In this document: piece after piece, positions 24,039-47,850 of the stretch
Layout: every line of letters starts with the position of its first letter
How positions within the stretch are numbered: position 1 is the first letter of the stretch
DNA from: Amycolatopsis sp. WQ 127309
GTDB taxonomy: Bacteria > Actinomycetota > Actinomycetes > Mycobacteriales > Pseudonocardiaceae
Assembly (NCBI RefSeq): GCF_023023025.1
Contig: NZ_CP095481.1
Location: 2,914,001 to 2,978,000, forward strand
Direction: 5' to 3'
DNA length: 64,000 nucleotides
The notes under the pieces: model-generated
Databases searched by the model: none
Told to the model about the DNA's origin: nothing
What the model saw: the letters and a program-made list of their open reading frames with translations, nothing else
Made by a program: the position numbers and the translations under genes

Positions 24039-24794
24039 TCAGATGGGGAGCTTGCGGAAGATCGGCCGCGGGACGTGCCGCAGCGCCGACATCACCAGCC
24101 GGAACGGCGCCGGCGCCCACACCAGGTCCTTGCCGGCGCGCGCGGCCGACACGGCGATGTCGGCGACCTGCTCGGCGGTCTGCGCCAGCGGGGCGTCCTT
24201 CATGCCCTCGGTCATCTTCGTCTTGACGTGCCCGGGGCGGACGACGGTCACCTTCGCGCCGTGCGGCGCGAGGGCCTCGCCGAGGCCCAGGTAGAAGCCG
24301 TCGAAACCGGCCTTGGTCGAGCCGTAGACGAAGTTGGACCGCCGGACGCGCTCACCGGCCACCGACGACAGCGCGATCACCGTGCCGTGGCCCTGGACCT
24401 TGAGCTTCTCCGACAGCGCGACGCCGACCGACACCGCGGCCGAGTAGTTCACGGTCGCCAGCTCGACGGCCTTCGCGTGGTCCTGCCACAGCTCCTCGGC
24501 GTCGCCGAGCAGGCCGAACGCCACGACCGCGACGTCGATGTCGCCGCCTTCGAACGCCTTGTCCAGCACGCCCGGGTGTGACGCCAGGTCCTTCGCGTCG
24601 AAGTCGACGGTCGCGACCTCGGCGCCCTTGTCCTTCAGGCGCTGCGCGGCCGCGTCGAGCCGCGGCGAGGGCCGGGCCGCGAGCACGACCCGCAGCGGCT
24701 TCTCGGCCAGGTACTTCTCCGCGATCGCCAGTGCGATGTCGGAGGTGCCGCCGAGCAGCAGCAGGGACTGGGGGTTGCCAACGGCGTCGATCAC
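24039..24794 (-). CDS. dprE2: Decaprenylphosphoryl-2-keto-ribose reductase
   Basis: A 251-residue short-chain dehydrogenase with the variant cofactor motif LLGGTSDIA near residue 15 and the catalytic YGSTK. DprE2 reduces the 2-keto intermediate made by DprE1 to decaprenylphosphoryl-arabinose, the sole arabinose donor for the wall. Its ATG overlaps the dprE1 stop (ATGA at 24791-24794). Gene pairing and motifs match Rv3791. Confidence 0.94.
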
Positions 24795-26161
24795 AGTGCG
24801 AGCCTCCGGCTCATGTCAGAGGCGAAAACGCCTTCGGGGTCCACGGCGGCGCGAACCTTGCGCCACTCTTCGAGCCGCGGGTACATCTTCGCGAACGTCT
24901 CGGGCGAGGTGCGCGAGTCCTTCGCGGTGTACAACCGCCCGCCGAGTTCGAGAACGTCGTCGTCGAGCTCCTGGCAGAACCGGCTGAGCCCGTCCTTGAT
25001 CGGGAAGTCGACGCAGACCATCCAGCCGGGGTGCGGGAACGACAGCGGCGCCGCGTTGCCCTCACCCATCCGCTTGAACACGTTGAGGAAGGAGACGTGC
25101 CCCGACTCGGCGATCTTCTTGACGATCTTCCGCAGTGGCTCGGCCGCGCCCAGCGGCGTCGAGAACTGGTACTGCAGGAAACCCTTGGAGCCGTAGGCCC
25201 GGTTCCACTCGCCGAACATGTCCAGCGGGTGGTAGAAGGCGGTCAGGTTCTGGATGACGCCGTGGGCTTCCTTCGGCGTCTTCCGGTAGTACAGCTCGCC
25301 GATCGTGCCGAAGGTCAGCTTGTTCGCCAGCCCGTTCGGGAAGACGTCCGGCAGCGTCGCGAGCTGCGGAGCGTCGAACTTCAGCGGGTTCGCGCGCAGC
25401 TTCGGCGGCAGTTCGTCGAGCTTGGCGAGCGAGCCGCGGCCGAAGGCGGCGCGGCCCAGCTTCGAACCGGTGGAGATCGTGTCGAACCACGCCGAGGAGT
25501 ACGTGTACTTGTCGTCGGAGCCGTTGCTGACCAGCTCGAGCGTCTCGTCGAGGTTGTTCGTGCGCTCGTTGTCGGCGAGGAAGTACGCCGTCTCCGTCTT
25601 GGTCATCCGGATCTTGGCCCGGACGATGATCCCGGTCAGGCCGATGCCCGCCACGGTCGCCCAGAACAGCTCGGCGTCCGGGCCTTCCGGCGTCAGCGTG
25701 CGGACCTTGCCGTCCGCGGTCACCAGGTCCATCGACACGACGTGGTTGCCGAAGCTGCCCGCGCTGTGGTGGTTCTTGCCGTGGATGTCGTTGGCGATCG
25801 CGCCGCCGATCGTCACCTGGCGCGTGCCCGGCAGCACCGGGACCCACAGGCCGTACGGCAGCGCCTCGCGCATCAGCTGGTCCAGGCTCACGCCGGCGTC
25901 GAGGTCGACGAGCGCGCTGTCCGGGTCGATCGAGTGGATCCGGTTCAGGGCCGTCATGTCGATGACGAGGCCGCCCGCGTTCTGCGCCGGGTCGCCGTAG
26001 GAGCGGCCGAGCCCGCGGGCGATGACACCGCGTTCGCCGGCCTGGGTCACGGCCCGCGCGATGACTTCGACGTCTGCGGTGCTCAGCACGTCGGCGGTGG
26101 TCGGTGCCGTCCGCGCCCAGCCCGTGAGCGTGCGACGCTGTGTGTCGAGTCCTGGGGTCAC
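24791..26161 (-). CDS. dprE1: Decaprenylphosphoryl-ribose 2-oxidase
   Basis: A 456-residue FAD-linked oxidase of the VAO family. The FAD-binding [15 protein letters not shown] and [14 protein letters not shown] segments are in the N-terminal half, and the substrate domain ends in FASDMSRRL. DprE1 oxidises C2 of decaprenylphosphoryl-ribose. Cys383 in [14 protein letters not shown] aligns with Cys387 of the M. tuberculosis enzyme, the residue modified by benzothiazinones. The start is a GTG. It is divergent from the gtrA-type gene. Confidence 0.95.
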
Positions 26162-26765: not shown

Positions 26766-28685
26766 ATGCCCGGTAAAACAGCTACCCCGGCGCCGACCAC
26801 CACTGCCGGCGCGGCCGCCGAGACGCGGTTCACCGAGCACACTCCGCAGGGTCGCCTGACGGCGCAGCGCGGGCTCTACGCCGGCCCGGCGCCGATCGTC
26901 AGCAAGGACCTCTACGCCGAGCTCGAGTGGGGCTCGGCCGTGCGGGAGCGTGCGGCGATCAGCCTCGAGCCCGCCTCCAAGGTGTCGGGCAACACGTACT
27001 TCGGGCGGTTCCCGGCCTCCTACTGGCAGCGCTGGACGACCGTCACCGAGGTGTCGGTCGAGGCGGTCGTCACCGGCACCGGGCTGCTGTCGATGGGTGC
27101 TTCCGACGTCGAAGGTGAGCCGCGGGTCATCGAGGCCGAGCAGGTCACCGACGTCAAGCAGCACAAGGTCGCCCTCACCGGGAAGCTGGACAAGTTCTAC
27201 GACGGTGGCGCGCTGTGGCTGGACCTGGAAACCGAAGGCGGCCAGACCCTGCGGGTGGAGCAGGTCCGCTGGACCGTCGAAGCCCCCGACACGATCCGCC
27301 CGACCGCGGTCACCATCTGCACCATGAACCGCGCGGATGACTGCCTGAAGAACCTGCAGGCCCTCGCCGCCGACGTGTCGTCGCTGGACACCCTCGACGC
27401 GATCTACGTCGCCGACCAGGGCACCGACCTGGTCGAATCCCGCGACGGGTTCGACCAGGTCGTGAAGGACCTCGGGGAGAAGCTGCACTACATCAAGCAG
27501 CCCAACCTCGGGGGCGCCGGCGGGTTCACCCGCGGGCTCTACGAGGTCGCCGGGCACACCGCCACCGCCCACGCCAACGTCCTGTTCATGGACGACGACG
27601 TCCTTTTGGAGCCGGACCTGGTGATCCGGATGACGGCGTTCTCCAACCGCGCCGCCAACCCGATCATCGTCGGCGGGCAGATGCTGAACCTGTTCCACCC
27701 CAACCAGCTCCACGTCGGCGCCGAATACGCGAGGTTGAACACCCTCGAACCCGGTCAGCCGGTCGAGCACTCGCTGACCACCGCGGACCTGCTCGGGGTG
27801 GACGAGGAGACGTTGAAGCCGAACCGGCAGGAACGCCGTCTCGACGCCGGCTACAACGGCTGGTGGTCCTGCCTGATCCCCTATGAGGTGGTGCAGGCCA
27901 CCGGGTATCCGATGCCGTTCTTCTTCCAGTGGGACGACGCCGAGTACTCCTACCGGGCCCGGGCGCACGGTTTCCCGACGGTGACGCTGCCGGGTGCGGG
28001 GGTGTGGCACGCGGACTTCCACATGAAGGACTGGGACGAGTGGCACCGCTACTTCAACCTGCGCAACTCCATCATCACCGCCGCCCTGCACTCCCCGTTC
28101 AACCTGAACCTGCTCTCCCGTGTCCTGCTCGCGCAGCTGGTGCGGTACCTGCTCGGGATGCAGTACGGGCTGTCGGCGACGTTGATCAAGGCGGTGGAGG
28201 ACTTCCTCGAAGGCCCTGAGGTCCTGCGCGACGGTGGTGTGGAGGCGATGAAGGAGATCCGCCGGATCCGGGACCAGTACCCGGAGACCAAGCGCCACAA
28301 GGCCACCGACGTCCCGGGGATCGCGTCGAACGACATCGGCATCATCAACAGCGCGCCGCGGCCCAGCATGCAGCGCCTGGTGCTGATCAAGCGCGTGCTC
28401 GACCGGGTGCTCGGCCGTAGCCGCTTCGGGCTCGGCGCGGTGCCGATCGACGAGGCGAACTGGTGGCACATCGCCCTGTTCGACACGGCGGTCGTCACCG
28501 ACGCGAACCAGGAAGGCGTCCGCGTCCGCTCCTACGACAAGGTCAAGATGTTCGACCTGGCCAAGCGCGGCGCGAAGGTCGTCCAGCGGCTGCGCAAGGA
28601 AGGCGCGGGAGTGCAGGAGCAGTACAAGCGCGCCATGCCGGAACTCACCTCGCGTGAGAACTGGAAGCGCCTGTACAAGCTCTGA
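26766..28685 (+). CDS. glfT2: Galactofuranosyltransferase GlfT2
   Basis: A 639-residue polymerase that extends the galactan with alternating beta-1,5 and beta-1,6 galactofuranose from UDP-Galf. An N-terminal beta domain (to about 170) is followed by the GT-A core with DDD at 276-278, WDDAEY (Asp390, Asp391) and His415 in WHADFHMKDWDEWH. These match Asp256-258, Asp371/372 and His396 of the mycobacterial enzyme with a constant offset of 19-20. A helical C-terminal region follows. In mycobacteria glfT2 adjoins glf; here it has moved beside gtrA. Confidence 0.95.
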   Translation: MPGKTATPAPTTTAGAAAETRFTEHTPQGRLTAQRGLYAGPAPIVSKDLYAELEWGSAVRERAAISLEPASKVSGNTYFGRFPASYWQRWTTVTEVSVEAVVTGTGLLSMGASDVEGEPRVIEAEQVTDVKQHKVALTGKLDKFYDGGALWLDLETEGGQTLRVEQVRWTVEAPDTIRPTAVTICTMNRADDCLKNLQALAADVSSLDTLDAIYVADQGTDLVESRDGFDQVVKDLGEKLHYIKQPNLGGAGGFTRGLYEVAGHTATAHANVLFMDDDVLLEPDLVIRMTAFSNRAANPIIVGGQMLNLFHPNQLHVGAEYARLNTLEPGQPVEHSLTTADLLGVDEETLKPNRQERRLDAGYNGWWSCLIPYEVVQATGYPMPFFFQWDDAEYSYRARAHGFPTVTLPGAGVWHADFHMKDWDEWHRYFNLRNSIITAALHSPFNLNLLSRVLLAQLVRYLLGMQYGLSATLIKAVEDFLEGPEVLRDGGVEAMKEIRRIRDQYPETKRHKATDVPGIASNDIGIINSAPRPSMQRLVLIKRVLDRVLGRSRFGLGAVPIDEANWWHIALFDTAVVTDANQEGVRVRSYDKVKMFDLAKRGAKVVQRLRKEGAGVQEQYKRAMPELTSRENWKRLYKL

Positions 28686-31050: not shown

Positions 31051-31059
31051 GGGACCCAG

Positions 31060-32577: not shown

Positions 32578-32587
32578 CAGCGACACG

Positions 32588-32615
32588 AAACGCCCCGCAC
32601 CTGGTGCGGGGCGTT
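32588..32615 (+). terminator. Terminator hairpin after PPE-like gene
   Basis: Arms AAACGCCCCGCAC and GTGCGGGGCGTTT form a 13-bp stem around a 2-base core (CT), with a T-run in the right arm (GTTTTCG). It lies 11 bases after the PPE-like stop, a classical intrinsic terminator that splits the ESX island into two transcripts. Confidence 0.85.
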
Positions 32616-32680
32616 TTCGCGTCCACGCTGGTCACGGAACCAGTAACCTTCCCCGCGCGTCGGACTGCGGGGAGGCCGGG

Positions 32681-33178: not shown

Positions 33179-33191
33179 GGGGACTTCGGAC

Positions 33192-35338: not shown

Positions 35339-35744
35339 CAGTTATGCCGTGCACCAGGGCAGGACGTACGAGGCCTCCGGTCGGCCGCCCGGCCGGCTGG
35401 CGCTCTACGAAGGTGATGCCCAGGTGGCCGAGGTGCCGATCGCGGACCTCGACGAGTGGTACTCGGTCCGCACCCGGGGCACCTTCCTCGAGCACGAGTT
35501 CGAGGTGGTGGACGAGCGCGACGGCTGCTACTCGCTGTTCTACATGGCCGGCGACGGTCAGTGGGCGGCACGAGTCTGGGCCGAGCCGGAAGCTCACCCG
35601 GACGTGCAGTTCCAACGGCAGGACATGTACACGTTCATCGCGGTCACGCCGAAAGACAAGGTAGCCGACATCCACGAGGTCCGTACGGACCTCCTCGGAC
35701 CGTGGCGGAAAGAGCAGGAAGAGCGTGAATCCCGTGAGTCCTGA
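35331..35744 (+). CDS. Candidate immunity protein
   Basis: A 137-residue acidic cytosolic protein starting at GTG 35331, with GGAGGA at 35320-35325. It overlaps the putative toxin stop by 8 bases, typical of toxin-immunity pairs. The sequence is beta-rich with many aromatics (YSVRTRGTFLEHEFEVV, RDGCYSLFYMAGDGQW) and ends in HEVRTDLLGPW. Its second half resembles the C-terminal part of the next protein (35725-36702), which ends VPAAELTDVRTEAEP. The immunity role is inferred from position and size. Confidence 0.55.
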   Translation: MPDSYAVHQGRTYEASGRPPGRLALYEGDAQVAEVPIADLDEWYSVRTRGTFLEHEFEVVDERDGCYSLFYMAGDGQWAARVWAEPEAHPDVQFQRQDMYTFIAVTPKDKVADIHEVRTDLLGPWRKEQEERESRES

Positions 35745-36706: not shown

Positions 36707-37618
36707 CTAGTAGCGGTAGAACTTCTCCGCCCGGCCCTGGCGGACCAGCTTCAGCCACGCCAGGAACGCCTTCGGGTCGCGCTTCACGCCCACGAAGTAC
36801 AGGCCGAAGCGGAGCACCTCCAGCGCGCCGATCTTGCGCATTCCCGGCTGGGACAGCAGGTAGCCGCGGTTGCGGTACGTGTAGTACCGCTTGACCTCGT
36901 TCTCCGGGTCCTGGGCGTGGAACTTGCCGCCCAGCATCGGCTTGAACTCGTCGGAGCCGTCCGGGTGCAGGTACTTCGTCTTGAGCGACGTGCCGAACGG
37001 CAGGCCCGAGCGGGCGAGCCGCCGGTGCAGCTCGACCTCGTCGCCGCGGAAGAACAGGCGCAGGTCCGGCACGCCGACGACGTCCAAAGTGGACGCCCGG
37101 AACAGGGCGCCGTTCATCAGGGACGCGATGCCCGGTAGGAAGTCGACGCCCAGCTCGGACTGCGACCGCTTCCACGTCAGGCCGCGGCGCAGCGGGAACG
37201 CGAGCTTGTCCGGCGCGTCGATGTTCGACACCACCGGGGAAATCTCGGCCAGGCCCCGCTTTTCCGCTTCCTCCAGCAGGATCGCCAGCACGTTCTCGTC
37301 GGCCGGACGGCCGTCGTCGTCGGCCAGCCAGACCCACTCCGCGCCCAGCGAGAGCGCGTGCAGCATGCCCAGCGCGAACCCGCCGGCGCCGCCGAGGTTC
37401 CGGTGCGACGGCAGGTACGTGCAGGGCAGCGGGTAGTTCTCGACGACCTCGCGGGCCGAGTTGTCCGGCCCGTTGTCGACGACGACCAGGTGGTCGACCG
37501 GACGGGTCTGGGCCGCGATGACCTTCAGCGAGTCCGCGAGCAGCTCGCGCCGGTGCCGCGTGACGACCACGCCGACGACCGCGCCGTCGGGCAGCTGCTG
37601 GGTCTCGCTGGCCATCAT
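36707..37618 (-). CDS. glfT1: Galactofuranosyltransferase GlfT1
   Basis: A 303-residue GT2-type glycosyltransferase that adds the first Galf residues to the rhamnosyl-GlcNAc linker on decaprenyl phosphate. It shows VVVTRHRRELLADSL, VVVDNGPDN, the NLGGAGGF loop shared with GlfT2, DDDG for metal and donor binding, and FFRGDEVELHRRL as the acceptor-side acidic motif. ATG 37618 overlaps the wzt stop (ATGA); a longer frame upstream would run inside wzt. Length and order match Rv3782. Confidence 0.93.
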   Translation of the reverse strand: MMASETQQLPDGAVVGVVVTRHRRELLADSLKVIAAQTRPVDHLVVVDNGPDNSAREVVENYPLPCTYLPSHRNLGGAGGFALGMLHALSLGAEWVWLADDDGRPADENVLAILLEEAEKRGLAEISPVVSNIDAPDKLAFPLRRGLTWKRSQSELGVDFLPGIASLMNGALFRASTLDVVGVPDLRLFFRGDEVELHRRLARSGLPFGTSLKTKYLHPDGSDEFKPMLGGKFHAQDPENEVKRYYTYRNRGYLLSQPGMRKIGALEVLRFGLYFVGVKRDPKAFLAWLKLVRQGRAEKFYRY

Positions 37619-38430
37619 TCCCCGCCGTTCGTCGTCGCCACCGGCTCGATGCCCAGGCGCTGCAGCGTTTCCTGGCTCATGTCCATGAACGGGTCGCGGC
37701 CCTTGTACCCGGTGAGGACGTCCCGCAGCGACCCCTGCTGCTTGAGGTGCCCCTCGTCCATCCAGAGGGCCGAGTCGCACAGCTCGAACAGGAACTCGTC
37801 CGAGTGGCTGGCGAACACCAGGATGCCCGAGCGCTTCACCAGGTCCTTGAGGCGGTCGCGCGCCTTGTTGAGGAAAGCCGCGTCGACCGCGCCGATGCCC
37901 TCGTCGAGGATCAGGATCTCGGGGTCGATCGAGGTGACGACGCCGAGCGCCAGCCGCACGCGCATGCCCGTGGAGTACGTCCGCAGCGGCATCTGCAGGT
38001 AGTCGCCGAGTTCGGTGAACTCGGCGATGTCGTCGACCCGCTTCTCCATCTCCTTGGCCGTCATCCCGAGGAAGAGGCCGCGGATGATGATGTTCTCTTC
38101 GCCGGAGATCTCCGGGTCCATGCCGATGCCGAGGTCGAAGACCGGCGCGATCTTGCCGGTGATCCGCGACGAGCCGCGGGTGGGCTCGTAGATCCCGGCG
38201 AGCAGCCGCAGCAGCGTGGACTTGCCCGCGCCGTTGTGGCCGACCAGGCCGACCCGGTCGCCCTCGCGGAGGTTGAGGGTCACGTCGTGGAGGGCCTCGA
38301 TGATCGGCACCTTGGTGTCGGTGCCGATCTTGCCGCCGACCTTGCCGAGGACGCGTTTCTTCATCGACCGGGTCTTCGCGTCGAAGATCGGGAAGTCGAC
38401 GAAGGCGTTCTGTACGTCAATGGAGACCAT
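37615..38430 (-). CDS. wzt: Galactan exporter ATP-binding protein Wzt
   Basis: A 271-residue ABC ATPase. Walker A GHNGAGKST is at 64-72, the signature has the polysaccharide-exporter form YSTGM (152-156), and Walker B LILDE ends at Glu177. It lacks the C-terminal carbohydrate-binding extension of O-antigen Wzt proteins. With Wzm it should flip the lipid-linked galactan across the membrane, as proposed for Rv3781/Rv3783. Three bases separate it from wzm, and it overlaps glfT1. Confidence 0.92.
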   Translation of the reverse strand: MVSIDVQNAFVDFPIFDAKTRSMKKRVLGKVGGKIGTDTKVPIIEALHDVTLNLREGDRVGLVGHNGAGKSTLLRLLAGIYEPTRGSSRITGKIAPVFDLGIGMDPEISGEENIIIRGLFLGMTAKEMEKRVDDIAEFTELGDYLQMPLRTYSTGMRVRLALGVVTSIDPEILILDEGIGAVDAAFLNKARDRLKDLVKRSGILVFASHSDEFLFELCDSALWMDEGHLKQQGSLRDVLTGYKGRDPFMDMSQETLQRLGIEPVATTNGGE

Positions 38431-38433: not shown

Positions 38434-39387
38434 TCACACCCAGTAGGAGACGCGGGCACGGTAATTGCGCATCGCGACGAGCGCGAGCGCCCAGCCGACG
38501 ATGGTGATGGAGCCGACCACGATCCAGTTGCCCGCCGTGAACGACTGGCCGAGCAGCGGGGCGCGGACCACCTGCATGAAGTGGTACAGCGGGTTCAGCT
38601 GGATGATCGGCAGCACCCACGAGATGCTCGCGCGAGCCCCGCCGCCGAGCAGCTGGTCGACCGGCCACACGATCGGCGTGCCGTAGAACAGCAGCTGGAT
38701 CAGCGAGTTGATGACCTGCGGGATGTCGCGGAAGCGGGTCGAGATGATGCCCAGCAGCAGCGTCACCCAGCCCGCGTTCAGCGCCAGCAGGACGAAACCG
38801 GGGATCGCGAGCAGGATGTTCCAGCTCAGGCCCGGGTGGCAGTACAGGTCCGCGTGGCAGAGGCCGTCCGCCGAACCGAGCGAGTACCGGTTGTCCAGCG
38901 CGCCGAAGAAGATCACGAGGATGACGACGTAGACGATCATGTTGTGCGCGAGCAGCAGCGTCTGGCGCCACACGGTGCGCAGCATGTAGACGCTCAGCGG
39001 CGCCGGGAGCTGCTTGATCATCCCCTCGTTGGCGATGAACGTCTCCATGCCCTCGGCCAGGCACCCGCTGATGAAGCCCCAGAGGATGAAGCCGGTGCTC
39101 AGGTAGGGCAGGAACACCTCGATGGGCGAGTGGAACAGCTGCGAGTACAGCAGCCCGAGCCCGAGCGCGATGACCGCCTGGCTGATCGTGATCCAGAAGG
39201 GCCCGATCACCGACCGGCGGTAGCGCTGCTTGATGTCCTGCCAGCCGAGGTGACCCCACAGCTCGCGGGCGGAGAAACCGGCCTTGATGTCGGCTATGGC
39301 GCGCGAGAACGTCTTGCTGTCCGACCTCGGCGGTGCCGACGTCGCTACGGGTGAGTCCGCGGCCTGAACCGTGCTGGTGGCATGCAC
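38434..39387 (-). CDS. wzm: Galactan exporter permease Wzm
   Basis: A 317-residue ABC-2 type permease with a soluble N-terminal stretch (about 60 residues, including an ELWGHLGWQDIKQRYRRS amphipathic helix) and six membrane helices. A cysteine pair (CHADLYCH) lies in an extracytoplasmic loop. It pairs with Wzt downstream. The start is a GTG at 39387. In M. tuberculosis this permease (Rv3783) is near bpa (Rv3780); here the pseudaminic acid block lies between them. Confidence 0.92.
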   Translation of the reverse strand: MHATSTVQAADSPVATSAPPRSDSKTFSRAIADIKAGFSARELWGHLGWQDIKQRYRRSVIGPFWITISQAVIALGLGLLYSQLFHSPIEVFLPYLSTGFILWGFISGCLAEGMETFIANEGMIKQLPAPLSVYMLRTVWRQTLLLAHNMIVYVVILVIFFGALDNRYSLGSADGLCHADLYCHPGLSWNILLAIPGFVLLALNAGWVTLLLGIISTRFRDIPQVINSLIQLLFYGTPIVWPVDQLLGGGARASISWVLPIIQLNPLYHFMQVVRAPLLGQSFTAGNWIVVGSITIVGWALALVAMRNYRARVSYWV

Positions 39388-39500: not shown

Positions 39501-40157
39501 ATGACTGCTGCTCTCGACGCGGCGAGCTTGATGGTCAACCTGCTCGCGGCGTACGCCGACCGGCCCGACCCGCGTTCGGTCGCCGTCGTCGGCAACCAGC
39601 CGCTCCCGCCCGACCCCCAGCGGGCCAAGGCGATCGACGCCTGCGACCTGGTCATCCGGGTCAACGGCTTCGTCGTCGACAAGCCCGGCGAGGAGGTCGT
39701 GGGCTCCCGGACGCACGTGGTGGTGTTCAACCGCGCGATCCGCGCGACGCCGTACGTCTTCCAGGACTACCGCAAGCGGCTCTACCTGCTGGTCGAGCCC
39801 GGCCGGCTGCACTGGGAGCCGGAGGACCTGCCGGGCTGGTGGCCCGAGGACCTGGGCGCGGTCCAGGTGCCGAACCGCGAGGTCGTGCTGCCCCTCTCGG
39901 ACGCGCTGGGGCTGCCCACGCGCGACGAGCCGACGTGGTCGACCACCGGCACCCTGGCCGCCTGGATCGCGCGGACGTCGTTCCCGGGCGCGCAGCTCGT
40001 GCTCACCGGGTTCTCGTTCATCGACAACCCGGAGCAGACGTCGTGGGAGCACGCCGCGGGCGACTCCTGCATCGTGGGCCCGGAGCACCAGATCGCCGCC
40101 GAAGGGCGGCTGCTGGACTCCTGGACCAAGACCGGTGACACCACTCTCCTGCGCTGA
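39501..40157 (+). CDS. GT29 sialyltransferase-like protein, candidate pseudaminyltransferase
   Basis: A 218-residue soluble protein with features of GT29 sialyltransferases. A motif-L-like block VAVVGNQP...IDACDLVIRVNGF (27-57) resembles the sialylmotif L. A motif-S-like WSTTGTLAAWIA...LVLTGFSF spans 146-173, and HQIAAE (His196, Glu201) fits the HxxxxE very-small motif. GT29 enzymes transfer nonulosonic acids from CMP donors. The gene lies directly upstream of the CMP-pseudaminic acid genes, so it is the natural candidate to transfer that sugar. It is short for GT29 and lacks a membrane anchor. The family call needs a profile search. Confidence 0.65.
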   Translation: MTAALDAASLMVNLLAAYADRPDPRSVAVVGNQPLPPDPQRAKAIDACDLVIRVNGFVVDKPGEEVVGSRTHVVVFNRAIRATPYVFQDYRKRLYLLVEPGRLHWEPEDLPGWWPEDLGAVQVPNREVVLPLSDALGLPTRDEPTWSTTGTLAAWIARTSFPGAQLVLTGFSFIDNPEQTSWEHAAGDSCIVGPEHQIAAEGRLLDSWTKTGDTTLLR

Positions 40158-40191
40158 ACCGCGCGTCCCCACCCCACGCAAAGGAACACCC

Positions 40192-40644
40192 ATGGCAGTG
40201 CAGAAACTCGGCAGAGGCCTGATCGACCGGATCGTCCGCGTCGTCGACTTCCGCGTGGACGAGCGCACCCGCGGGCTCGCCGACCGGGTCAACAACCTCG
40301 AGCACGCGACCGCCGACCACCGGCGCCGGCTCGACAACGCCGAGCACAACCTCGACCAGGCCCGCGGCGATCTGGGCTGGGCCCGCGCCGAGCTGGACCG
40401 GCTGATCCCGCACGTCGCCGCCCAGGAAGGCCGGCTGGAGACGCTGCGCGAGTCGATCTCCCTGGTCCCGAACACCGACACCCCGCAGCTCGCCGAGGCC
40501 CGCACGCTGATCGAGGAGATCCAGCGCCAGCACGCGCAGATCCGCGCCCGGCTGGCCGGCATCTCCCGCTACGAAGACCGGCTGCGCCGTCTCGAGGACC
40601 GCGTCGAGGACCAGGTCGAGCAGCAGCAGCCGGTCGCGCAGTAG
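40192..40644 (+). CDS. Coiled-coil protein
   Basis: A 150-residue, strongly charged protein. From about residue 25 it is almost continuous coiled coil with heptad-like Leu, Ile and Val spacing (LADRVNNLEHAT, RRLDNAEHNLDQ, RLRRLEDRVEDQVEQ), broken around PNTDTPQ (about 99-105). The first 20 residues (GRGLIDRIVRVVDF) could form an amphipathic membrane-surface helix. No enzyme domain is visible. AAGGA precedes the ATG. It lies between the GT29-like gene and pseH, so it may tether or scaffold enzymes of the pathway. Confidence 0.7.
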   Translation: MAVQKLGRGLIDRIVRVVDFRVDERTRGLADRVNNLEHATADHRRRLDNAEHNLDQARGDLGWARAELDRLIPHVAAQEGRLETLRESISLVPNTDTPQLAEARTLIEEIQRQHAQIRARLAGISRYEDRLRRLEDRVEDQVEQQQPVAQ

Positions 40645-40645
40645 C

Positions 40646-41095
40646 TTGCGCGCCCGGGAGGCCACCGAAGCCGACGCCGAGCTGCTGCTGAGCTGGCGCA
40701 ACGACCCGCGCACGCGGCAGTCGTCCCGGTCGACGGCGGTGGTCTCCCTGGCCGAGCACACCGGCTGGCTGCGCGGGGTGCTCACGGACGACGAGCGGCT
40801 GCTGCTCGTCGTCGAGCACGAAGGCGCCCCGGTCGGCACCGTCCGGTTCGACCGGCGTGCCGGCGGCTGGGAGGTCAGCATCACGCTCGCCCCGGCGAGC
40901 CGGGGCCGCGGGCTGTCCGGGGCGGTGCTCGCCGAGGGGGAGCGGGCGCTGCGCGAGCGGCTCGACGTCCGGGTCGTGCTGGCCGCCGTCCACCAGGACA
41001 ACGCCGCTTCGGCGAAGCTCTTCGAGCACGCCGGGTACGCCGAAGCCGCGCCTGCCGTCAACGGCTTCCGGCAGCTGCGCAAGACTCTGAGGTGA
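40646..41095 (+). CDS. pseH: PseH-like N-acetyltransferase (GNAT)
   Basis: A 149-residue GNAT acetyltransferase of the PseH type. It has the N-terminal ELLLSWRNDPRTRQSS typical of amino-sugar acetyltransferases in nonulosonate pathways. The acetyl-CoA loop is ASRGRGLSG, and a C-terminal VHQDNAASAKLFEHAGY follows. PseH N-acetylates UDP-4-amino-4,6-dideoxy-AltNAc at N4. TTG start two bases after the coiled-coil stop, so the two genes are coupled. The specific name rests on the complete pse set around it. Confidence 0.85.
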   Translation: MRAREATEADAELLLSWRNDPRTRQSSRSTAVVSLAEHTGWLRGVLTDDERLLLVVEHEGAPVGTVRFDRRAGGWEVSITLAPASRGRGLSGAVLAEGERALRERLDVRVVLAAVHQDNAASAKLFEHAGYAEAAPAVNGFRQLRKTLR

Positions 41096-41126
41096 CCTGA
41101 CCCGTTCCACTGGGAGGCGGCACCCC

Positions 41127-42176
41127 ATGCACGACATCCGGTTCGGCGCGCACCAGATCGGTCCGGGCCACCCGCCGTTCGTGATCGCCGAGATGTCCGG
41201 CAACCACAACGGCGACCTCGACCGGGCGCTGGCCATCGTCGACGCCATCGCGGAAACCGGCGCGCACGCGGTCAAGCTGCAGACCTACCGCCCGGACACG
41301 ATCACCATCGACGTCGACACCCCGGCGTTCCGGATCGGCGACTCGCATTCCCTGTGGGGCGGCGAAAACCTGTACAAACTGTACGAAAAGGCCCACACGC
41401 CCTGGGAGTGGCACGCGCCGATCTTCGAGCGCGCCCGCGCCAAGGGCCTGGAGATCTTCTCCAGCCCCTTCGACCCGACCGCCGTCGAGCTGCTGGAGTC
41501 ACTGGACGCGCCGGCGTACAAGATCGCGTCGTCGGAGATCGTCGACCTGCCGCTGATCGACCTCTGCGCCCGCACCGGCAAGCCGCTGGTCATCTCGACC
41601 GGCATGGCGAACGTCGCCGAGATCGACGCCGCCGTCCGCACCGCCCGCGAAGCCGGCAACGACCAGCTGATCGTGCTCGGCTGCACGGCGAGCTACCCGG
41701 CGTCGCCGCGCGAGAGCAACCTGCGCGGCCTGCCGCTGCTGGCCGGCCTGACGCAGACGCTGGTCGGGCTGTCGGACCACACGCCGGGCATCGGCGCGCC
41801 GGTCGCGGCCGTCGCGCTGGGTGCCGTCGCCATCGAGAAGCACGTCACGCTGGCGCGCGCGGACGGCGGCGTCGACTCGGAGTTCTCGCTGGAGCCGTCG
41901 GAGCTGGCCGCGCTGGTCGCCGAGACGCACCGGGCGTGGGAAGCGCTGGGCGAGCCGGTGCTGGGCCCGCGTGAGAGCGAGAAGGAGGGCCTGCGGCTGC
42001 GCCGGTCCCTCTACGTCGTCGAGGACGTCCGGGCGGGCGACGAGGTGACGCCGGCGAACGTCCGGTCGATCCGGCCCGCCGGCGGCCTGGCCCCGGCCGA
42101 GATCACGGCCGTGGCCGGGCGCACCTTCCGCGTCGACGCCGCGAAGGGCACACCCCTCACCTGGGACCTGCTCTAG
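41127..42176 (+). CDS. pseI: Pseudaminic acid synthase
   Basis: A 349-residue NeuB-family TIM barrel with a C-terminal antifreeze-like (SAF) domain (about 285-349). PseI condenses phosphoenolpyruvate with the 2,4-diacetamido-trideoxy-altrose released by PseG. IAEMSGNHNGD, LWGGENLYKLYEKAHTPWEWH, SSPFD, KIASSE and GLSDHTPG are all in place; the LWGGxxLYxLYxxA segment is the form I associate with PseI rather than NeuB or LegI. GGGAGG precedes the ATG. Its TAG and the convergent pseC stop share CTAG at 42173-42176. Confidence 0.93.
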   Translation: MHDIRFGAHQIGPGHPPFVIAEMSGNHNGDLDRALAIVDAIAETGAHAVKLQTYRPDTITIDVDTPAFRIGDSHSLWGGENLYKLYEKAHTPWEWHAPIFERARAKGLEIFSSPFDPTAVELLESLDAPAYKIASSEIVDLPLIDLCARTGKPLVISTGMANVAEIDAAVRTAREAGNDQLIVLGCTASYPASPRESNLRGLPLLAGLTQTLVGLSDHTPGIGAPVAAVALGAVAIEKHVTLARADGGVDSEFSLEPSELAALVAETHRAWEALGEPVLGPRESEKEGLRLRRSLYVVEDVRAGDEVTPANVRSIRPAGGLAPAEITAVAGRTFRVDAAKGTPLTWDLL

Positions 42177-43306
42177 AAGAAGTCGCGCACGGCGTCGACG
42201 ACGCGGTCGACGTCGGCGTCCGTCAGCGACGGGAACAGCGGCAGCGAGAGCTCCTGCTCGTAGTACGCCTCGGCGTTCGGGCAGAGCCCGCGCCGGTAGC
42301 CGAGGTCCTCGAACACCGGGTGCCAGTACGCCGGGATGTAGTTGACCTGGACGCCGATGCCGGCGCCGCGCAGGTGCTCGAACAGCGCCTTGCGCCGGCC
42401 TGCCAGCACTCGCAGCGGGTAGAGGTGCCACACGGGGTCGGCGCCCGGGCGGCTCGGCGGGGTCGCGACGCCGTCGACGTCCGCGAGGGCCGCGCTGTAG
42501 CGGGCGTGGATCTCGGCGCGGCGCTTCTTGAACTCGCCGAGCCGGGTGAGCTGGCTGCTGCCGAGCGCGCAGAGGACGTCGGGCAGGCGGTAGTTCAGCC
42601 CGAACTCGTGGACTTCCTGGTGCCAGGCGCCTTCGTCCGGGTAACGCTGCTCGGCGCGGTCGCGGACCAGGCCGTGGTTGCGGAACTTCCGCGCGCGGTC
42701 CAGCAGGTGCGCGTCCGGGGTGACGACCGCGCCGCCCTCGGCGGTCGTGAGGTTCTTGGTCGGGAAGAACGAGAACGTCGTCAGGTCGGCGATCGAGCCC
42801 ACCGCGCGGCCCTGCCACGCGCCGCCGACGGAGTGCGCCGCGTCCTCCAGCAGCAGCGCCCCGGCGTCGTGCGCGAGCTTGCCGAGGGCGTCCAGCTCCG
42901 CGGGGTGGCCCGCGTAGTCGACGGCGGCGACGACCTTCGTGCGCTCGGTCATCGCAGCGGTGGCCGCTTCGACCGAAAGGTTCCCGGTGTCCGCTTCGAC
43001 GTCGGCGAACACGACCTTCGCACCGAACAGCGCGGCCGTGGCGGCCGTCGCGACGAACGTCATCGGGGAGACGACGACCTCGTCGCCCGCGCCGATGCCC
43101 GCGGCCGCGTAGGCGACGTGCAGCGCCGCCGTCCCGGAGGTCACGGCCACCGCGGGAGTGCCGCCGGTGTGCGCCGCGAGGTCCCTCTCGAACTGCTGGA
43201 CCGCGGGCCCGGTGGTCAGCCAGTCGCCGCGGAGCACCGCGACGACCGCCTCGATGTCCGCGTCACTGATCGACTGGCGGCCGTACGGGAGAAACGGCTC
43301 AGCCAT
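42173..43306 (-). CDS. pseC: UDP-4-amino-sugar aminotransferase PseC
   Basis: A 377-residue DegT/DnrJ-family PLP aminotransferase. The PLP lysine is Lys184 in FSFFPTKNLTTAEGG, and LLEDAAHSVGG holds the Asp that contacts the PLP ring. PseC aminates the 4-keto product of PseB. Its ATG overlaps the pseB stop by 8 bases, so PseB and PseC come from one transcript running opposite to pseI. Confidence 0.92.
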   Translation of the reverse strand: MAEPFLPYGRQSISDADIEAVVAVLRGDWLTTGPAVQQFERDLAAHTGGTPAVAVTSGTAALHVAYAAAGIGAGDEVVVSPMTFVATAATAALFGAKVVFADVEADTGNLSVEAATAAMTERTKVVAAVDYAGHPAELDALGKLAHDAGALLLEDAAHSVGGAWQGRAVGSIADLTTFSFFPTKNLTTAEGGAVVTPDAHLLDRARKFRNHGLVRDRAEQRYPDEGAWHQEVHEFGLNYRLPDVLCALGSSQLTRLGEFKKRRAEIHARYSAALADVDGVATPPSRPGADPVWHLYPLRVLAGRRKALFEHLRGAGIGVQVNYIPAYWHPVFEDLGYRRGLCPNAEAYYEQELSLPLFPSLTDADVDRVVDAVRDFF

Positions 43307-44282
43307 ACTGCTCGACCAGCTCGCGCAGCTCCTGCGCGTCCAGCCACAGGTCGTTCGTGTCGGAGCGGTAGGCGAAGCCGTCGGGCATCGGCTTACCGTC
43401 CGCCGGCGACTCGTAGCCCCAGCCCGCGAGGTGCGGCTGGACGACGTAGCGGTCGGACAGCTGGACCGTCCGGCGCGCGTCGTCCGGCGCGATCATCTCC
43501 TCGTGCAGCTTCTCGCCGGGGCGGATGCCGACCTCGTGCATCTCGCTGCCCGGCGCGATCGCCTGGGCGAGATCGACGAGCCGCATGCTCGGGATCCGCG
43601 GCACGTACAGCTCACCGCCGCGCATCTGGTCGAACGAGTCGACGACGAACCGCACGGCCTGGGGGAGCGTGATCCAGAAGCGGGTCATCTCCTTGTGCGT
43701 GATCGGCAGCGACTCGCCCTGCTCGGCGAGCTTGCGGAAGAACGGGATGACGCTGCCGCGCGAGCCCATCACGTTGCCGTAGCGGACCACGGAGAACCGG
43801 GTCACGTGCGCGGCCGCGTAGTGGTTGCCGCTGATGAACATCCGGTCGGCGCACAGCTTCGTGGCGCCGTAGAGGTTGATCGGGCTGGACGCCTTGTCGG
43901 TCGACAGCGCGACGACCTTCTTGACGCCCGTGTCGATCGCGGCCTCGATCACGTTCTGCGAGCCCATGACGTTGGTCTGGACGAACTCGAACGGGTTGTA
44001 CTCACCGGTGTCGACCTGCTTGAGCGCGGCGGCGTGCACGACGTAGTCGACGCCGTGCATGGCGCGCTCGAGCCGGCGCCGGTCGCGGACGTCGCCGATG
44101 AACCAGCGCAGGCGCGGGTCGTCGTTGAACAACTGCCGGGCTTCGTACTGCTTGAGCTCGTCGCGGGAGAGCACGACCAGCCGGCTCGGGTTCAGTTCGG
44201 CGAGGGCGTGCGCGATGAACGCCTTGCCGAACGAACCGGTCCCGCCGGTGAGCAGGATGCTGGAGCCATCCAGCTCGGACAT
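43299..44282 (-). CDS. pseB: UDP-GlcNAc 4,6-dehydratase, 5-inverting
   Basis: A 327-residue SDR-extended dehydratase/epimerase with cofactor motif TGGTGSFGK at 12-20, the PseB hallmark STDKASSPINLYGATK with an active-site Asp-Lys pair, and HAAALKQVDTGEYNP. It performs the first committed step, turning UDP-GlcNAc into a 4-keto-L-altrose-configured sugar. ATG 44282 is chosen because GGAGG lies 6 bases upstream; a longer frame would cross into the divergent pseF. It is divergent from pseF with a 40-base gap, too short for two separate full promoters. Confidence 0.94.
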   Translation of the reverse strand: MSELDGSSILLTGGTGSFGKAFIAHALAELNPSRLVVLSRDELKQYEARQLFNDDPRLRWFIGDVRDRRRLERAMHGVDYVVHAAALKQVDTGEYNPFEFVQTNVMGSQNVIEAAIDTGVKKVVALSTDKASSPINLYGATKLCADRMFISGNHYAAAHVTRFSVVRYGNVMGSRGSVIPFFRKLAEQGESLPITHKEMTRFWITLPQAVRFVVDSFDQMRGGELYVPRIPSMRLVDLAQAIAPGSEMHEVGIRPGEKLHEEMIAPDDARRTVQLSDRYVVQPHLAGWGYESPADGKPMPDGFAYRSDTNDLWLDAQELRELVEQYG

Positions 44283-44322
44283 CGTTGACCTCCGCGTTTG
44301 GGGTTGGGTGCCGTCGGCCATC

Positions 44323-45069
44323 ATGTCACCCATGCGTGCAGTGCCCGGTGTCAACGCCGTCATCCAGGCCCGGTCGACGTCGACGAGGCTGCCCGGCAAG
44401 GTGCTGCGCCCGCTGGCCGGCCGCAGTGTGCTGGGCTGGGTCGTCCGGGCCGCGGCGGCCGCTCCCGGGGTGGACCGCGTGGTGGTCGCGACCTCGTCGG
44501 ACGCTTCCGACGACGCCGTCGCCGCCGAGGCCGTGCGGTGCGGCGCGGCCGTGGTCCGCGGCCCGCTGGACGACGTCCTCGCGCGCTTCGGGCTGGCCTT
44601 GCGGGAGCACCCGGCCGACGCCGTGATCAGGCTCACCGCGGACTGCCCGCTGCTGGACCCGGCACTGATCGGCCAGCTGGCGACGCTCTGGCGGGCCCAG
44701 CCGTCGCTGGACTACGTCAGCACGACGCTGGTCCGGACGCTGCCGCGCGGGTTCGACGCCGAGCTGGTGCGCGCTTCGGTACTGGCCGAGCAGGTCGAGA
44801 CGGCCACCGGCGCCGACCGGGAGCACGTCACCTCGGGCATCTACTCGCAGCCTGCGCGCTATTCGTGCACCGGGATCGTGGTGAGCCCGGCCGCCGACGA
44901 CCTGCGGGTGACGTTGGACACGGCCGAGGACTGGGCCCTGCTGGAAGCGCTCGTGGCGGAGCTGGGCGACCGCGTCGGCGACTGGCGGTCCGTGGTCGGG
45001 CTGCTGCGGTCGCGGCCGGATCTGGTGGCGCTGAACGCCGAGGTCGAGCAGAAGAAGGTCGGGCAGTGA
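44323..45069 (+). CDS. pseF: CMP-pseudaminic acid cytidylyltransferase
   Basis: A 248-residue nucleotidyltransferase of the CMP-sugar (SpsF/PseF) family. NAVIQARSTSTRLPGKVL is the CTP-binding N-terminus, and RLTADCPLLDP carries the metal-binding acidic residue. It activates pseudaminic acid to the CMP donor. Two in-frame ATGs (44323, 44332) are possible; no strong ribosome site decides between them. GTGA couples it to pseG. Confidence 0.88.
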   Translation: MSPMRAVPGVNAVIQARSTSTRLPGKVLRPLAGRSVLGWVVRAAAAAPGVDRVVVATSSDASDDAVAAEAVRCGAAVVRGPLDDVLARFGLALREHPADAVIRLTADCPLLDPALIGQLATLWRAQPSLDYVSTTLVRTLPRGFDAELVRASVLAEQVETATGADREHVTSGIYSQPARYSCTGIVVSPAADDLRVTLDTAEDWALLEALVAELGDRVGDWRSVVGLLRSRPDLVALNAEVEQKKVGQ

Positions 45070-46022
45070 GGCTGCTCCTGCGGGCGGACTCGTCGGCGTC
45101 GATCGGCGCCGGGCACATCTCGCGGGTGGTCGCCTACGCCGAGCGCGCGGTGGCGCGGGGCTGGCCGGTCTCGTTCGCCGGCAGCACGGCGAACGCCGAA
45201 TGGCTCGCGTCGCGGTTCGACGAGCTGGCGGTCCCGCGGCTGGCCGACGCGCCCCTCGGTGAGCTGGCGGCCGGGTTCGACGCCGTGCTCGTCGACCACT
45301 ACGGCGTCGGCGACGTGCGCAAGGAGATCAACGCGGCGGGCGCGGCGCTGGTGTCGATCGAGGACGACGTGTTCGGCCGCCGCCCGGCCGACGTCGTCGT
45401 GGACGCCGGTTTCGCGCCCGGACCGCGGCCGGACGACGGCTCCGGCGTCCTGCTGCGCGGAGTCGCGTACGCGCCGCTGCGGGACGTCGTCCTGCGCACC
45501 CGGGACCGCCGCGCGCCGTCCGGTACCCCGCACGTCACGGTCGTCCTCGGGGGCGGCGCGGAGTGGGCGTCGACGGTCGCGGTGCTGCTTCGCGCGCTTC
45601 GCGACACGGAACTGCCGTTCGTGGCGGACGCTTTGGTGCGCGGCGAGCCTTCCCTGCCGTCGCTGGGCCCCGGCCAGACGATCCGCGTCTCGGCGCCGAG
45701 CCCCGCTCTGCTCGACACGCTGGCGACGACGGACGTCGCGGTGAGCGCGTCCGGGGTGACGTTCGTGGAGCTGTGCTGCCTCGGCGTCCCGACGGCCGCG
45801 GTGCAGCTGGTCGCCAACCAGGAGACCGGCTACCGGGCCGCGCTGGAGCTGGGCCTCGCGGCCGGGCTCGGGCACGCGGAGTCCCTTGAGGACAGACTGC
45901 CGGAGGTGACGGCGGTGTTGCGCGCACTGCTGTCCGACGCCGCGGTCCGCCACGCGCTGTCCGCGACGGCGTCGGCCACAGTGGACGGTCGCGGCGTGGA
46001 CCGGGTCCTGGATTCCCTCTGA
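45066..46022 (+). CDS. pseG: UDP-sugar hydrolase PseG
   Basis: A 318-residue GT-B-fold hydrolase that removes UDP from 2,4-diacetamido-2,4,6-trideoxy-altrose. The N-terminal LRADSSASIGAGHISR contains the catalytic-type His17. The C-terminal half has the nucleotide site (VLGGGAEW, VSASGVTFVELCCLGVP, NQETGY). PseG is specific to the pseudaminic route, unlike the hydrolysing epimerases of the sialic and legionaminic routes, so it fixes the pathway identity. GTG start overlaps the pseF stop. Confidence 0.92.
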   Translation: MRLLLRADSSASIGAGHISRVVAYAERAVARGWPVSFAGSTANAEWLASRFDELAVPRLADAPLGELAAGFDAVLVDHYGVGDVRKEINAAGAALVSIEDDVFGRRPADVVVDAGFAPGPRPDDGSGVLLRGVAYAPLRDVVLRTRDRRAPSGTPHVTVVLGGGAEWASTVAVLLRALRDTELPFVADALVRGEPSLPSLGPGQTIRVSAPSPALLDTLATTDVAVSASGVTFVELCCLGVPTAAVQLVANQETGYRAALELGLAAGLGHAESLEDRLPEVTAVLRALLSDAAVRHALSATASATVDGRGVDRVLDSL

Positions 46023-46064: not shown

Positions 46065-47210
46065 ATGACGATCACCCCGTTCCGCATCGACATCCCGCAA
46101 GCCGAGATCGACGACCTTCGTGCGCGGCTCGCGAACACCCGCTGGCCCGACCAGCCCGCCGATACCGGGTGGCGGCTCGGGGCGCCCGTCGACTACGTGC
46201 GTGAGCTGGCCGAGTACTGGCGGCTGGAGTTCGACTGGCGCGCGCAGGAGGAGCGGCTCAACGGCTTCCCGCAGTTCACGACGGCCATCGACGGGACGAC
46301 CGTGCACTTCCTGCACGTGGAGTCGCCGGAACCGGGTGCGACGCCGGTGCTGCTCACGCACGGCTGGCCGGGCTCGGTCGTCGAATTCCTCGACGTGATC
46401 GGGCCGCTCACCGATCCGCGCGCGTACGGCGGCGATCCCGCGGACGCGTTGCACGTGGTGGTGCCGTCGATCCCGGGTTACGGCTTCTCCGGCCCGACGC
46501 CGGAGGCGAACTGGGGGCCGGACCGGATCGCCCGGGCGTTCGCGGAGCTGATGACCCGCCTCGGTTACGAGAACTTCGGCGCCCACGGCGGCGACTGGGG
46601 CGCGTCCATCGCGCGCGAACTGGCGGTGCAGTTCCCCGAGCGGGTCGTGGGGATCCACGTGACGACGCTGCCGTCGGCGGTGGTCCGGAGCGAGGCCGCC
46701 CTCGAGGGCCTGACCGGCGACGAGCTCGCGGCGGCCCGGCGCTCGCTGGAGAAGGGGCTGAAGTTCTCGTACCTGGGCACGGGCTACGCGATGATCCAGT
46801 CGACCAAGCCGCAAACGCTGGCGTACGGCCTGACCGACTCGCCGGCGGGCCAGCTGGCGTGGATCGCGGAGAAGTTCCGCGCGTTCTCGAACACCTCGGA
46901 AGACCTCATCGACCGCGACGACCTGCTGGCGGACGTCTCGATCTACTGGTTCACGGGCACGGCCAACTCGTCGGCGCGGTTGTACGCGGCCCTGGCCGCG
47001 CCGTGGGGCTCCCCGCCGCCGCCGAACACGGTCCCGACGGGCTTCGGCGTCTTCCCGGACGACATCGGCCTGCCGATCCGGACGCTCGCGGAGCGAACGG
47101 ACAAGATCGTCCGCTGGACGGAGTTCCCGCGGGGCGGTCACTTCCCCGGGCTGGAGGAGCCGGACGCGCTGATCGGCGACGTCCGGGCGTTCTTCCGCAG
47201 CTTGCGCTGA
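46065..47210 (+). CDS. Epoxide hydrolase, EHN-type alpha/beta hydrolase
   Basis: A 381-residue microsomal-type epoxide hydrolase. The N-terminal EHN lid domain begins TITPFRIDIPQAEIDDLRARL. The oxyanion motif HGWPGS is at 99-104, the nucleophile Asp177 is in GGDWGA, and the catalytic His is in FPRGGHFPGLEEP. It opens epoxides to diols, probably in catabolism or detoxification. It lies between pseG and bpa with no obvious link to either. Confidence 0.88.
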   Translation: MTITPFRIDIPQAEIDDLRARLANTRWPDQPADTGWRLGAPVDYVRELAEYWRLEFDWRAQEERLNGFPQFTTAIDGTTVHFLHVESPEPGATPVLLTHGWPGSVVEFLDVIGPLTDPRAYGGDPADALHVVVPSIPGYGFSGPTPEANWGPDRIARAFAELMTRLGYENFGAHGGDWGASIARELAVQFPERVVGIHVTTLPSAVVRSEAALEGLTGDELAAARRSLEKGLKFSYLGTGYAMIQSTKPQTLAYGLTDSPAGQLAWIAEKFRAFSNTSEDLIDRDDLLADVSIYWFTGTANSSARLYAALAAPWGSPPPPNTVPTGFGVFPDDIGLPIRTLAERTDKIVRWTEFPRGGHFPGLEEPDALIGDVRAFFRSLR

Positions 47211-47268: not shown

Positions 47269-47850
47269 CTAGAGGTATTGCCCGGTCCCCGAAATCCCGG
47301 GCCCATGCCCTTCGACACCCGGCACACCGAGGCTGCCGCCGGCGGCCGACGGACCCGCCGGCAGGCCCCGCCGCATCTGCTCCAGCTGGACCCGCGCCGC
47401 CATCTGCTGGGCGAACAGCGCGGTCTGTATCCCGCTGAACAAGCCCTCCAGCCAGCCGACCAGCTGGGCCTGGGCGATCCGCAGCTCCGCGTCCGACGGC
47501 GTCGAGTCGTCGGCGAACGGGTGGACCAGGCGCTCCAGCTCGTCGCGCAGCTCCGGCGCCAGCGAGTTCGACAGCTCCTTCACCGACGTCTGGTGGATCT
47601 CGCGCACCCGCGTGCGGGACGCGTCGTCGAGCGGGGCGGCGCGGACCTCCTCCAGGAGCTGCTTGATCATCGTGCCGATCCGCATCACCTTCGCCGGCTC
47701 TTCGATGAGCTCGCCCACGGCCTCGGCGTGCTCCGCGCCCTCGAGGGGCGAGCCGTCCGGTCCGACTACCACCACGTGGGGTGAAGATTCGTGGCCGGCG
47801 TCACCCGCTGTGCCCGATTCCCGGAAGTTCGGCTCGGTCATGTGCTCCAT
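47269..47850 (-). CDS. bpa: Bacterial proteasome activator Bpa/PafE
   Basis: A 193-residue four-helix protein of the DUF2587 family that forms a dodecameric ring and opens the 20S proteasome for ATP-independent degradation. The decisive feature is the C-terminal GQYL (190-193), which docks in the proteasome alpha ring. A flexible Gly/Pro-rich segment precedes it. Two starts, 47850 and 47841, are possible. In M. tuberculosis bpa (Rv3780) lies beside wzt-glfT1, consistent with this neighbourhood. Confidence 0.93.
   Translation of the reverse strand: MEHMTEPNFRESGTAGDAGHESSPHVVVVGPDGSPLEGAEHAEAVGELIEEPAKVMRIGTMIKQLLEEVRAAPLDDASRTRVREIHQTSVKELSNSLAPELRDELERLVHPFADDSTPSDAELRIAQAQLVGWLEGLFSGIQTALFAQQMAARVQLEQMRRGLPAGPSAAGGSLGVPGVEGHGPGISGTGQYL

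Follow-up and report, generated by a model that had tools for sequence, protein, structure and literature searches.

A nonulosonic acid module at the galactan exporter locus of Amycolatopsis and its relatives: a candidate system for galactan modification

Gene content of the wzm-bpa interval

The window analysed here, 64,000 nucleotides of the genome of Amycolatopsis sp. WQ 127309 (contig NZ_CP095481.1, positions 2,914,001 to 2,978,000; genome G000, 11.13 Mb in one contig), contains a block of genes for biosynthesis of the nonulosonic acid (NulO) pseudaminic acid (Pse), lying in the slot between wzm, the permease gene of the galactan exporter, and bpa (Table 1). An earlier note on this DNA had described the interval 39501..46022 as a six-gene Pse pathway with intact catalytic motifs in a galactan neighbourhood. 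All six steps can indeed be located, with PseB, PseC and PseI scoring over their NCBIfam equivalog cut-offs, and the neighbourhood is borne out by GlfT1, Wzt and Wzm, which score over the galactan equivalog cut-offs, as well as by BPA, confirmed through PF10759. The interval, however, comprises eight genes, the two that had gone unnamed encoding a GT29-like and a coiled-coil-like protein, and the statement on catalytic motifs is backed by an alignment for PseI and, for the remaining enzymes, by inspection by eye against the usual motifs. Given the scores against curated models and the conservation of the block near wzm, the presence of the Pse block at the galactan locus is real and chance is excluded.

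Table 1. Features of the galactan locus and of the Pse block in the window
Feature	Position	Strand	Support
Short-chain dehydrogenase/reductase (SDR) and FAD-binding/ALO proteins	24039..26161	-	Pfam adh_short, FAD_binding_4, ALO
GlfT2-family galactan polymerase, same wider locus	26766..28685	+	PF19320 and PF17994 over cut-off
GlfT1, initiating galactofuranosyltransferase	36707..37618 (start approximate)	-	NF050113, 501.5 bits (cut-off 330)
Wzt, galactan exporter ATPase	37615..38430	-	NF050108, 465.3 bits (cut-off 400)
Wzm, galactan exporter permease	38434..39387	-	NF050109, 426.6 bits (cut-off 380)
GT29/GT42-fold glycosyltransferase, 218 aa, candidate CMP-nonulosonate:galactan transferase	39501..40157	+	fold and motifs
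Helical coiled-coil-like protein, 150 aa, constant partner of the transferase	40192..40644	+	
PseH-like GNAT N-acetyltransferase	40646..41095	+	TIGR03585, 48.2 bits (under cut-off 93.1); GNAT Pfam models
PseI, pseudaminic acid synthase (NeuB and SAF domains)	41127..42176	+	TIGR03586, 449.7 bits (cut-off 340.25)
PseC, aminotransferase	42173..43306	-	TIGR03588, 426.0 bits (cut-off 423.5)
PseB, inverting 4,6-dehydratase	43299..44282 (start approximate)	-	TIGR03589, 486.3 bits (cut-off 407.75)
Cytidylyltransferase (CTP_transf_3) in the PseF role	44332..45069	+	PF02348, 85.6 bits
PseG-like UDP-sugar hydrolase	45066..46022	+	TIGR03590, 78.5 bits (under cut-off 153.55)
Epoxide-hydrolase-type gene, separating the Pse block from bpa	46065..47210		
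BPA, bacterial proteasome activator, far flank of the slot	47269..47850	-	PF10759, 246 bits

Starting from UDP-N-acetylglucosamine, the successive action of PseB, PseC, PseH, PseG, PseI and PseF would yield Pse activated with cytidine monophosphate (CMP-Pse), and the steps are supported by the sequence. The best PDB match of PseI, the only PseI-family match in the whole genome, is a pseudaminic acid synthase (8h2c, E 3.9e-69); the cytidylyltransferase matches the cytidylyltransferase 6oew (E 3.8e-25), the PseG-like protein matches the UDP-sugar hydrolase 3hbm (E 0.017), and the PseH-like protein aligns with PseH 4xpk (E 0.0054), another PDB match scoring better. The block shares with the known CMP-Pse pathway all six steps, three of them over equivalog cut-offs, and differs from it in the divergence of PseG, PseH and the cytidylyltransferase, in its site at a galactan export locus and in residing in a genome without a flagellin match. 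Flagellin was rejected as the acceptor: PF00669 has 0 matches in G000, compared with matches in 4 of 14 control genomes.

The sugar made by the module is most likely a Pse derivative. It is possible, although we consider it less likely than not, that the product is another 5,7-diamino nonulosonate or Pse with a different N-acyl group, rather than Pse5Ac7Ac, which would be compatible with all that is proposed below on its destination. Such a product would fit the sub-cut-off scores of the PseG and PseH relatives, the absence of the PseF model TIGR03584 among the matches of the cytidylyltransferase at E <= 1e-10, and the low identity (36-38%) between the window's GNAT protein and those in the PseH place of loci L060, L088 and L092. 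Because the genes adjoining the latter are 76-97% identical to those of the window, the N-acyl group may differ even among these close relatives. PseB, PseC and PseI, each over the equivalog cut-off of the Pse route, argue in the opposite direction.

The first gene of the interval encodes a 218-aa protein in which the test for a sialyltransferase fold was positive. The protein scores 23.8 against PF00777 (gathering score 23.0); among its relatives, that of L139 is likewise over this score (27.7), that of L148 is under it (16.0), and those of L157 and L134 have no match. One stretch aligns with ST6Gal1 (E 0.0022) and a sub-threshold stretch covers an H-x4-E element, whose residues H196 and E201 are invariant in sets of 24 and 41 transferase sequences; we take the former stretch to be motif L and the H-x4-E element to be motif VS. 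The nearest match is from Amycolatopsis lexingtonensis (96% identical). The protein resembles the GT29/GT42 sialyltransferases (ST3Gal1, ST6GalNAc2, CstII) in fold, in the motif-L-like stretch and in H-x4-E. It differs from them in its small size, in barely passing PF00777, in its actinomycete host, in being, to judge by eye from the sequence, apparently soluble and cytosolic, in its constant partner, and in its donor, probably Pse, Neu or Kdn depending on the lineage.

In 127 of 128 loci, the gene for this partner, a coiled-coil-like protein, comes immediately after that for the transferase and in the same orientation; the remaining locus is truncated by the end of the sequence (the loci were pooled from overlapping sets, so that some genomes are counted twice). 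Its AlphaFold2 (AF2) model consists of helices 2-90 (89 residues) and 98-145 (48 residues), with pLDDT 92.4 and pTM 0.52; from the sequence we infer that the two helices form a coiled coil, and the protein is probably a scaffold. The transferase and coiled-coil-like pair is the constant part of the slot, and the sugar genes are its exchangeable part.

Linkage to the galactan exporter and exchange of sugar cassettes

A survey of 200 genomes of the family revealed a Wzm match in 199 (196 over the cut-off), the transferase in 48, distributed over 15 of 46 genera, and a PseI-family match in 59, 57 of these strong (E <= 1e-50). A strong NulO synthase is present in 46 of the 48 genomes with the transferase versus 11 of the 152 without it (Fisher p 4e-32, with kinship uncorrected, from a 2x2 table that disregards the weaker PseI matches of G029 and G158). 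The transferase and wzm lie in the same stretch in 45 of the 48 genomes, the distance between them having a median of 217 bp and never exceeding 4.1 kb. The two transferase genomes that lack a synthase (G173 and G196; loci L180 and L181) also keep the partly matching transferase gene beside wzm, together with the coiled-coil gene and with no NulO synthase match; in the G173 copy the frame is open but H-x4-E and other invariant residues are lost, and the partial match of the G196 copy is of the same kind. Many Amycolatopsis, Prauserella, Saccharomonospora, Actinophytocola and Actinokineospora species carry the module, and some of their sister species lack it.

The genome comparison suggested in the earlier note, on whether the block always lies between wzm and bpa, gave a less uniform picture: the block is near wzm in 31 of the 37 genomes whose PseI match is over the cut-off, and in 23 of these bpa falls within the stretch as well. 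In four of the 37, all of genus g5 (L045, L047, L048, L058), the synthase is found away from the galactan genes and the transferase is absent from the genome; Pse is apparently used on another glycan there. These stretches also encode an ATP-binding cassette (ABC) exporter ATPase that is Wzt-like (29-33% identity to Wzt), and further Pse genes are seen in three of the four. In two more, both assigned to Sciscionella by coordinate match (G074 with L119/L120; G040 with L064/L065), the slot has been split by rearrangement, such that the transferase and coiled-coil genes remain by wzm and the Pse genes by bpa. Thus, the rule was rejected as worded. The broader contention that linkage to the exporter points to NulO decoration fared better, inasmuch as the linkage is conserved across genera and the block includes a candidate transferase; the part that fell is the specificity of the slot for Pse.

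Cassettes of Neu5Ac type or apparently of Kdn type occupy the same place in relatives. In G009 (L067) and G032 (L080), the synthase best matches NeuB (354 and 356 bits, cut-off 399.65) and is accompanied by NeuC over its equivalog cut-off, which therefore means, on the basis of these matches, an N-acetylneuraminic acid (Neu5Ac)-type sugar. A short synthase, with no SAF domain in L068, occurs in G175 (L068) and G152 (L072) alongside a cytidylyltransferase that is fused with a domain resembling KdsC or Kdn-9-phosphatase; given that none of these domain matches is over its cut-off, we infer a ketodeoxynonulosonic acid (Kdn)-type sugar from the gene set. G032 is the only one of these four outside the galactan slot.

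Of 90 loci found by transferase alignment, 80 were kept, and 62 of the 80 are galactan-linked, with 38 Pse, 9 Kdn and 8 Neu cassettes and 7 unlabelled (the labels follow BLAST-match rules: NeuC; KdnB over 60%; PseB over 60%; L144 is Pse by PseB alone and doubtful). All three kinds are found within Amycolatopsis, and likewise within Actinokineospora. On a tree of GlfT1, Wzt and Wzm, built by a quick method with some long branches, the 55 labelled loci (the 7 unlabelled ones being left out) require eight changes of sugar type, the minimum possible being two. In the Neu-type Amycolatopsis loci L153, L155, L166 and L167, the exporter genes group with Pse species but the transferases fall in the Neu/Kdn clade, which suggests exchange of the entire module. 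Amycolatopsis arida (L128), by contrast, combines NeuB and NeuC with a transferase of the Pse clade; hence, there is no strict correspondence between the donor and the type of transferase.

Across the class, the transferase is rare (seven matches, four of them strong, including G000, in a survey of 394 genomes). Outside the family, Geodermatophilus (L148, L152, L156, L165) and Blastococcus atacamensis (L163) carry the pair near relatives of GlfT1, Wzt, Wzm and GlfT2. Equivalog-level GlfT1 and Wzm are present in 12 of 17 genomes searched, a set of 15 from outside the family and two from inside (L141, L151) that omits L152, L156 and L165 (Geodermatophilus) and L154 and L158 (Actinokineospora). 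The other five are three Nocardioidaceae metagenome-assembled genomes (MAGs) and two Schumannella genomes; in both of the latter, GlfT1-like genes and another ABC exporter are found 10-12 kb past the cassette, in one case also with a GlfT2-like gene (34% over 94%). With respect to arabinosyltransferases, PF12250 and PF04602 both lacked a match in three Geodermatophilus assemblies, of unchecked completeness, that carry the module as well as galactan genes, and the Blastococcus and Modestobacter genomes searched have PF04602 (4 of 4) or, in the case of L163, PF12250. Beside the galactan/NulO region of Geodermatophilus L148 (11300-18488), two large proteins with LGFP repeats are encoded, one of which also carries an amidase domain.

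In genomes without the transferase, the wzm side of the slot may hold other genes. A pyruvyltransferase homologue lies beside wzm in all five sampled genomes of the window's genus that lack the transferase and in G020 (PF04230 confirmed in L179 and L182, the other four assigned by 75-81% identity to L179). PF04230 and NulO genes were rejected as strict alternatives, being found together in Amycolatopsis marina (L109) and in one Actinophytocola MAG (L063 and L127, same contig). In G190, G010 and G022, from three genera, the gene beside wzm encodes a methyltransferase (PF13578/TylF) whose N-terminal part is a coiled coil by eye, and in G064 and G146 a 533-aa protein, to which Pfam gave no name (L184 only); nor did it name the 499-aa gene of L202 and the 525-aa gene of L093. 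G045 has a gap of 422 bp. From the genera without the transferase, 20 genomes were sampled, one per genus (20 of 31 such genera, picked among genomes listed with a Wzm position). Both wzm and bpa are present in 18, and in 11 of these the slot is essentially empty, with a gap of 92-272 bp; therefore, wzm-bpa adjacency is common without the module. The other seven contain a methyltransferase (one), a major facilitator superfamily (MFS) protein (L203), a protein without a Pfam match (one), unassigned stretches of 0.4-1.7 kb (three) and, in L189, several unrelated genes (BREX-like, PepX, GCS2). Given L189, L203 and the near-empty gaps, the notion that the slot is as a rule reserved for glycan genes was rejected. 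The BREX genes in L189 (1745-3993) encode BrxC/BrxD-like ATPases and are inserted between wzm and bpa.

The acceptor and a proposed mechanism

Galactan synthesis takes place on a lipid, at the cytoplasmic face; Wzm-Wzt then exports the polymer, and arabinan is added afterwards (PMC10951656). We propose that the block is a complete module that would make a CMP-activated NulO and attach it to galactan. CMP-NulO would be the donor for the 218-aa enzyme, as suggested by its fold and conservation; the acceptor would be lipid-linked galactofuran built by GlfT1 and GlfT2 at the cytoplasmic face, as suggested by linkage and topology; and the modified galactan would then be exported by Wzm-Wzt, the cassette in the slot (Pse, Neu5Ac-type or Kdn-type) setting the acidic sugar displayed on the wall. 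Galactan is the likeliest acceptor because a soluble CMP-sugar enzyme beside the exporter could reach it but not exported arabinan; arabinan, being added after export (PMC10951656), is less likely. Decoration of galactan with a NulO is our leading explanation because the link to the exporter is conserved across genera and the block includes a candidate CMP-nonulosonate transferase, and we consider it somewhat favoured that this enzyme puts a NulO, here probably a Pse derivative, on galactan at the cytoplasmic face before export.

Several observations weigh against this proposal. PF00777 is passed narrowly, three of the five members tested being under the cut-off and two of these without any match, and the sub-cut-off PseG and PseH relatives leave the exact sugar unsure. 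In three of the 48 transferase genomes (G017, G032 and, because of a contig end, G167), and likewise at the named locus L158, the transferase is not shown beside wzm. Eight of nine Blastococcus and Modestobacter loci have no GlfT or Wzm match in the stretch examined, with purK or sbcC/sbcD near the three inspected with Pfam, although the same eight genomes nevertheless carry equivalog-level GlfT1 and Wzm; the three Nocardioidaceae MAGs have the module and no equivalog-level GlfT1 or Wzm. The unrelated genes in the slot of L189 belong here as well. Taken from the other side, the module might be a neighbour of the galactan genes and nothing else: the wzm-bpa junction would be an insertion hot spot, the link to galactan would be historical, and the NulO would decorate another surface polymer, for example of teichulosonic or capsule type, or a protein. 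The unrelated genes at this junction in some genomes and the absence of equivalog-level galactan genes beside most of the Blastococcus/Modestobacter modules and beside those of Nocardioidaceae in the stretches examined are in keeping with such a history, as are the NulO wall polymers known in Streptomyces (PMC11481543) and the teichulosonic acids of Kribbella (PMC6113628). We regard it as fairly unlikely, given that the link holds in 45 of 48 genomes and has survived repeated exchange of cassettes, that it recurs in Geodermatophilus, with the Schumannella module 10-12 kb from another exporter locus of the galactofuranose (Galf) type, and that the alternative genes in the slot, in G020 and in all five genomes sampled from the window's genus, are polysaccharide pyruvyltransferase family members, likewise implicated in glycan tailoring.

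A stronger form of galactan decoration can be envisaged in which a single NulO is placed at the non-reducing end and the transferase and coiled-coil protein thereby stop elongation of the chain. In Klebsiella O4 and O12, a CMP-ketodeoxyoctonic acid (CMP-Kdo) enzyme and a coiled-coil ruler end the chain before ABC export (PMC11231755), and the combination of a CMP-ulosonate-type transferase, a coiled coil and an ABC exporter, also seen in the WbdD systems, is the same in the window; this comparison concerns the gene plan. The constancy of the partner and its modelled 89-residue and 48-residue helices fit a role of this kind, and the methyltransferase of G190, G010 and G022, with its by-eye coiled coil, resembles the methyl terminators described in PMC11231755. 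The polymer, unlike those of the Klebsiella and WbdD systems, would be wall galactan. Two features tell against a cap: the coiled coil is a separate and short protein, and in Wzt (271 aa) ABC_tran is the sole Pfam match over the cut-off, a carbohydrate-binding module not being seen with Pfam. Moreover, Wzm has a match in 199 of the 200 family genomes and the transferase is missing from 152 of them, and thus such a cap is not needed for export. We therefore regard chain termination as a tentative possibility. The most far-reaching version, in which the slot would be an exchangeable galactan cap cassette (NulO, pyruvyl or methyl) combining a cytoplasmic chain stop and a coiled-coil ruler into a horizontally switched, species-specific epitope, we consider unlikely. 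Such switching would perhaps be under pressure from phages or lectin-targeted toxins; by analogy with Streptomyces, where species-specific surface glycans are targeted by lectin-guided toxins (PMC13274773), the latter are a possible driver of cassette swaps.

NulO-containing wall polymers are already known in actinomycetes, for example the Kdn-galactose teichulosonic acid in the wall of Streptomyces (PMC11481543). The present system is similar in predicting a NulO together with galactose in a wall polymer; it differs in that teichulosonic acids are separate polymers, whereas here the genes lie next to those of the galactan exporter and different sugar types replace one another at a single site. 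We found no description of a NulO module at a galactan locus in the open-licence PMC literature (titles and abstract starts, with many subscription journals outside this body). Mycobacteria and related bacteria have galactan as a core polymer of their walls, and regulation of its size is treated as a hypothesis under study (PMC10951656); a module that probably modifies galactan before export offers a tractable test. If the proposal is correct, the slot would represent a cell-wall counterpart of O-antigen switching, with several acidic sugars alternating at one locus. With respect to enzymology, the transferase is a small bacterial representative of the sialyltransferase fold, and its relatives appear to accept donors of the Pse, Neu5Ac and Kdn types.

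Other genes of the galactan region

In G000, AftA_N (PF12250) has no match, yet there are two Arabinose_trans (Emb, PF04602) matches; the priming arabinosyltransferase of this genome may be of another kind. The SDR and FAD-binding/ALO proteins presumably occupy the places of DprE2 and DprE1, respectively. Furthermore, the interval between GlfT2 and GlfT1 (28745-36702) encodes a member of the EspG family and, with a score under the Pfam cut-off, a WXG100-like protein, which together constitute an apparent type VII secretion cluster within the galactan region.

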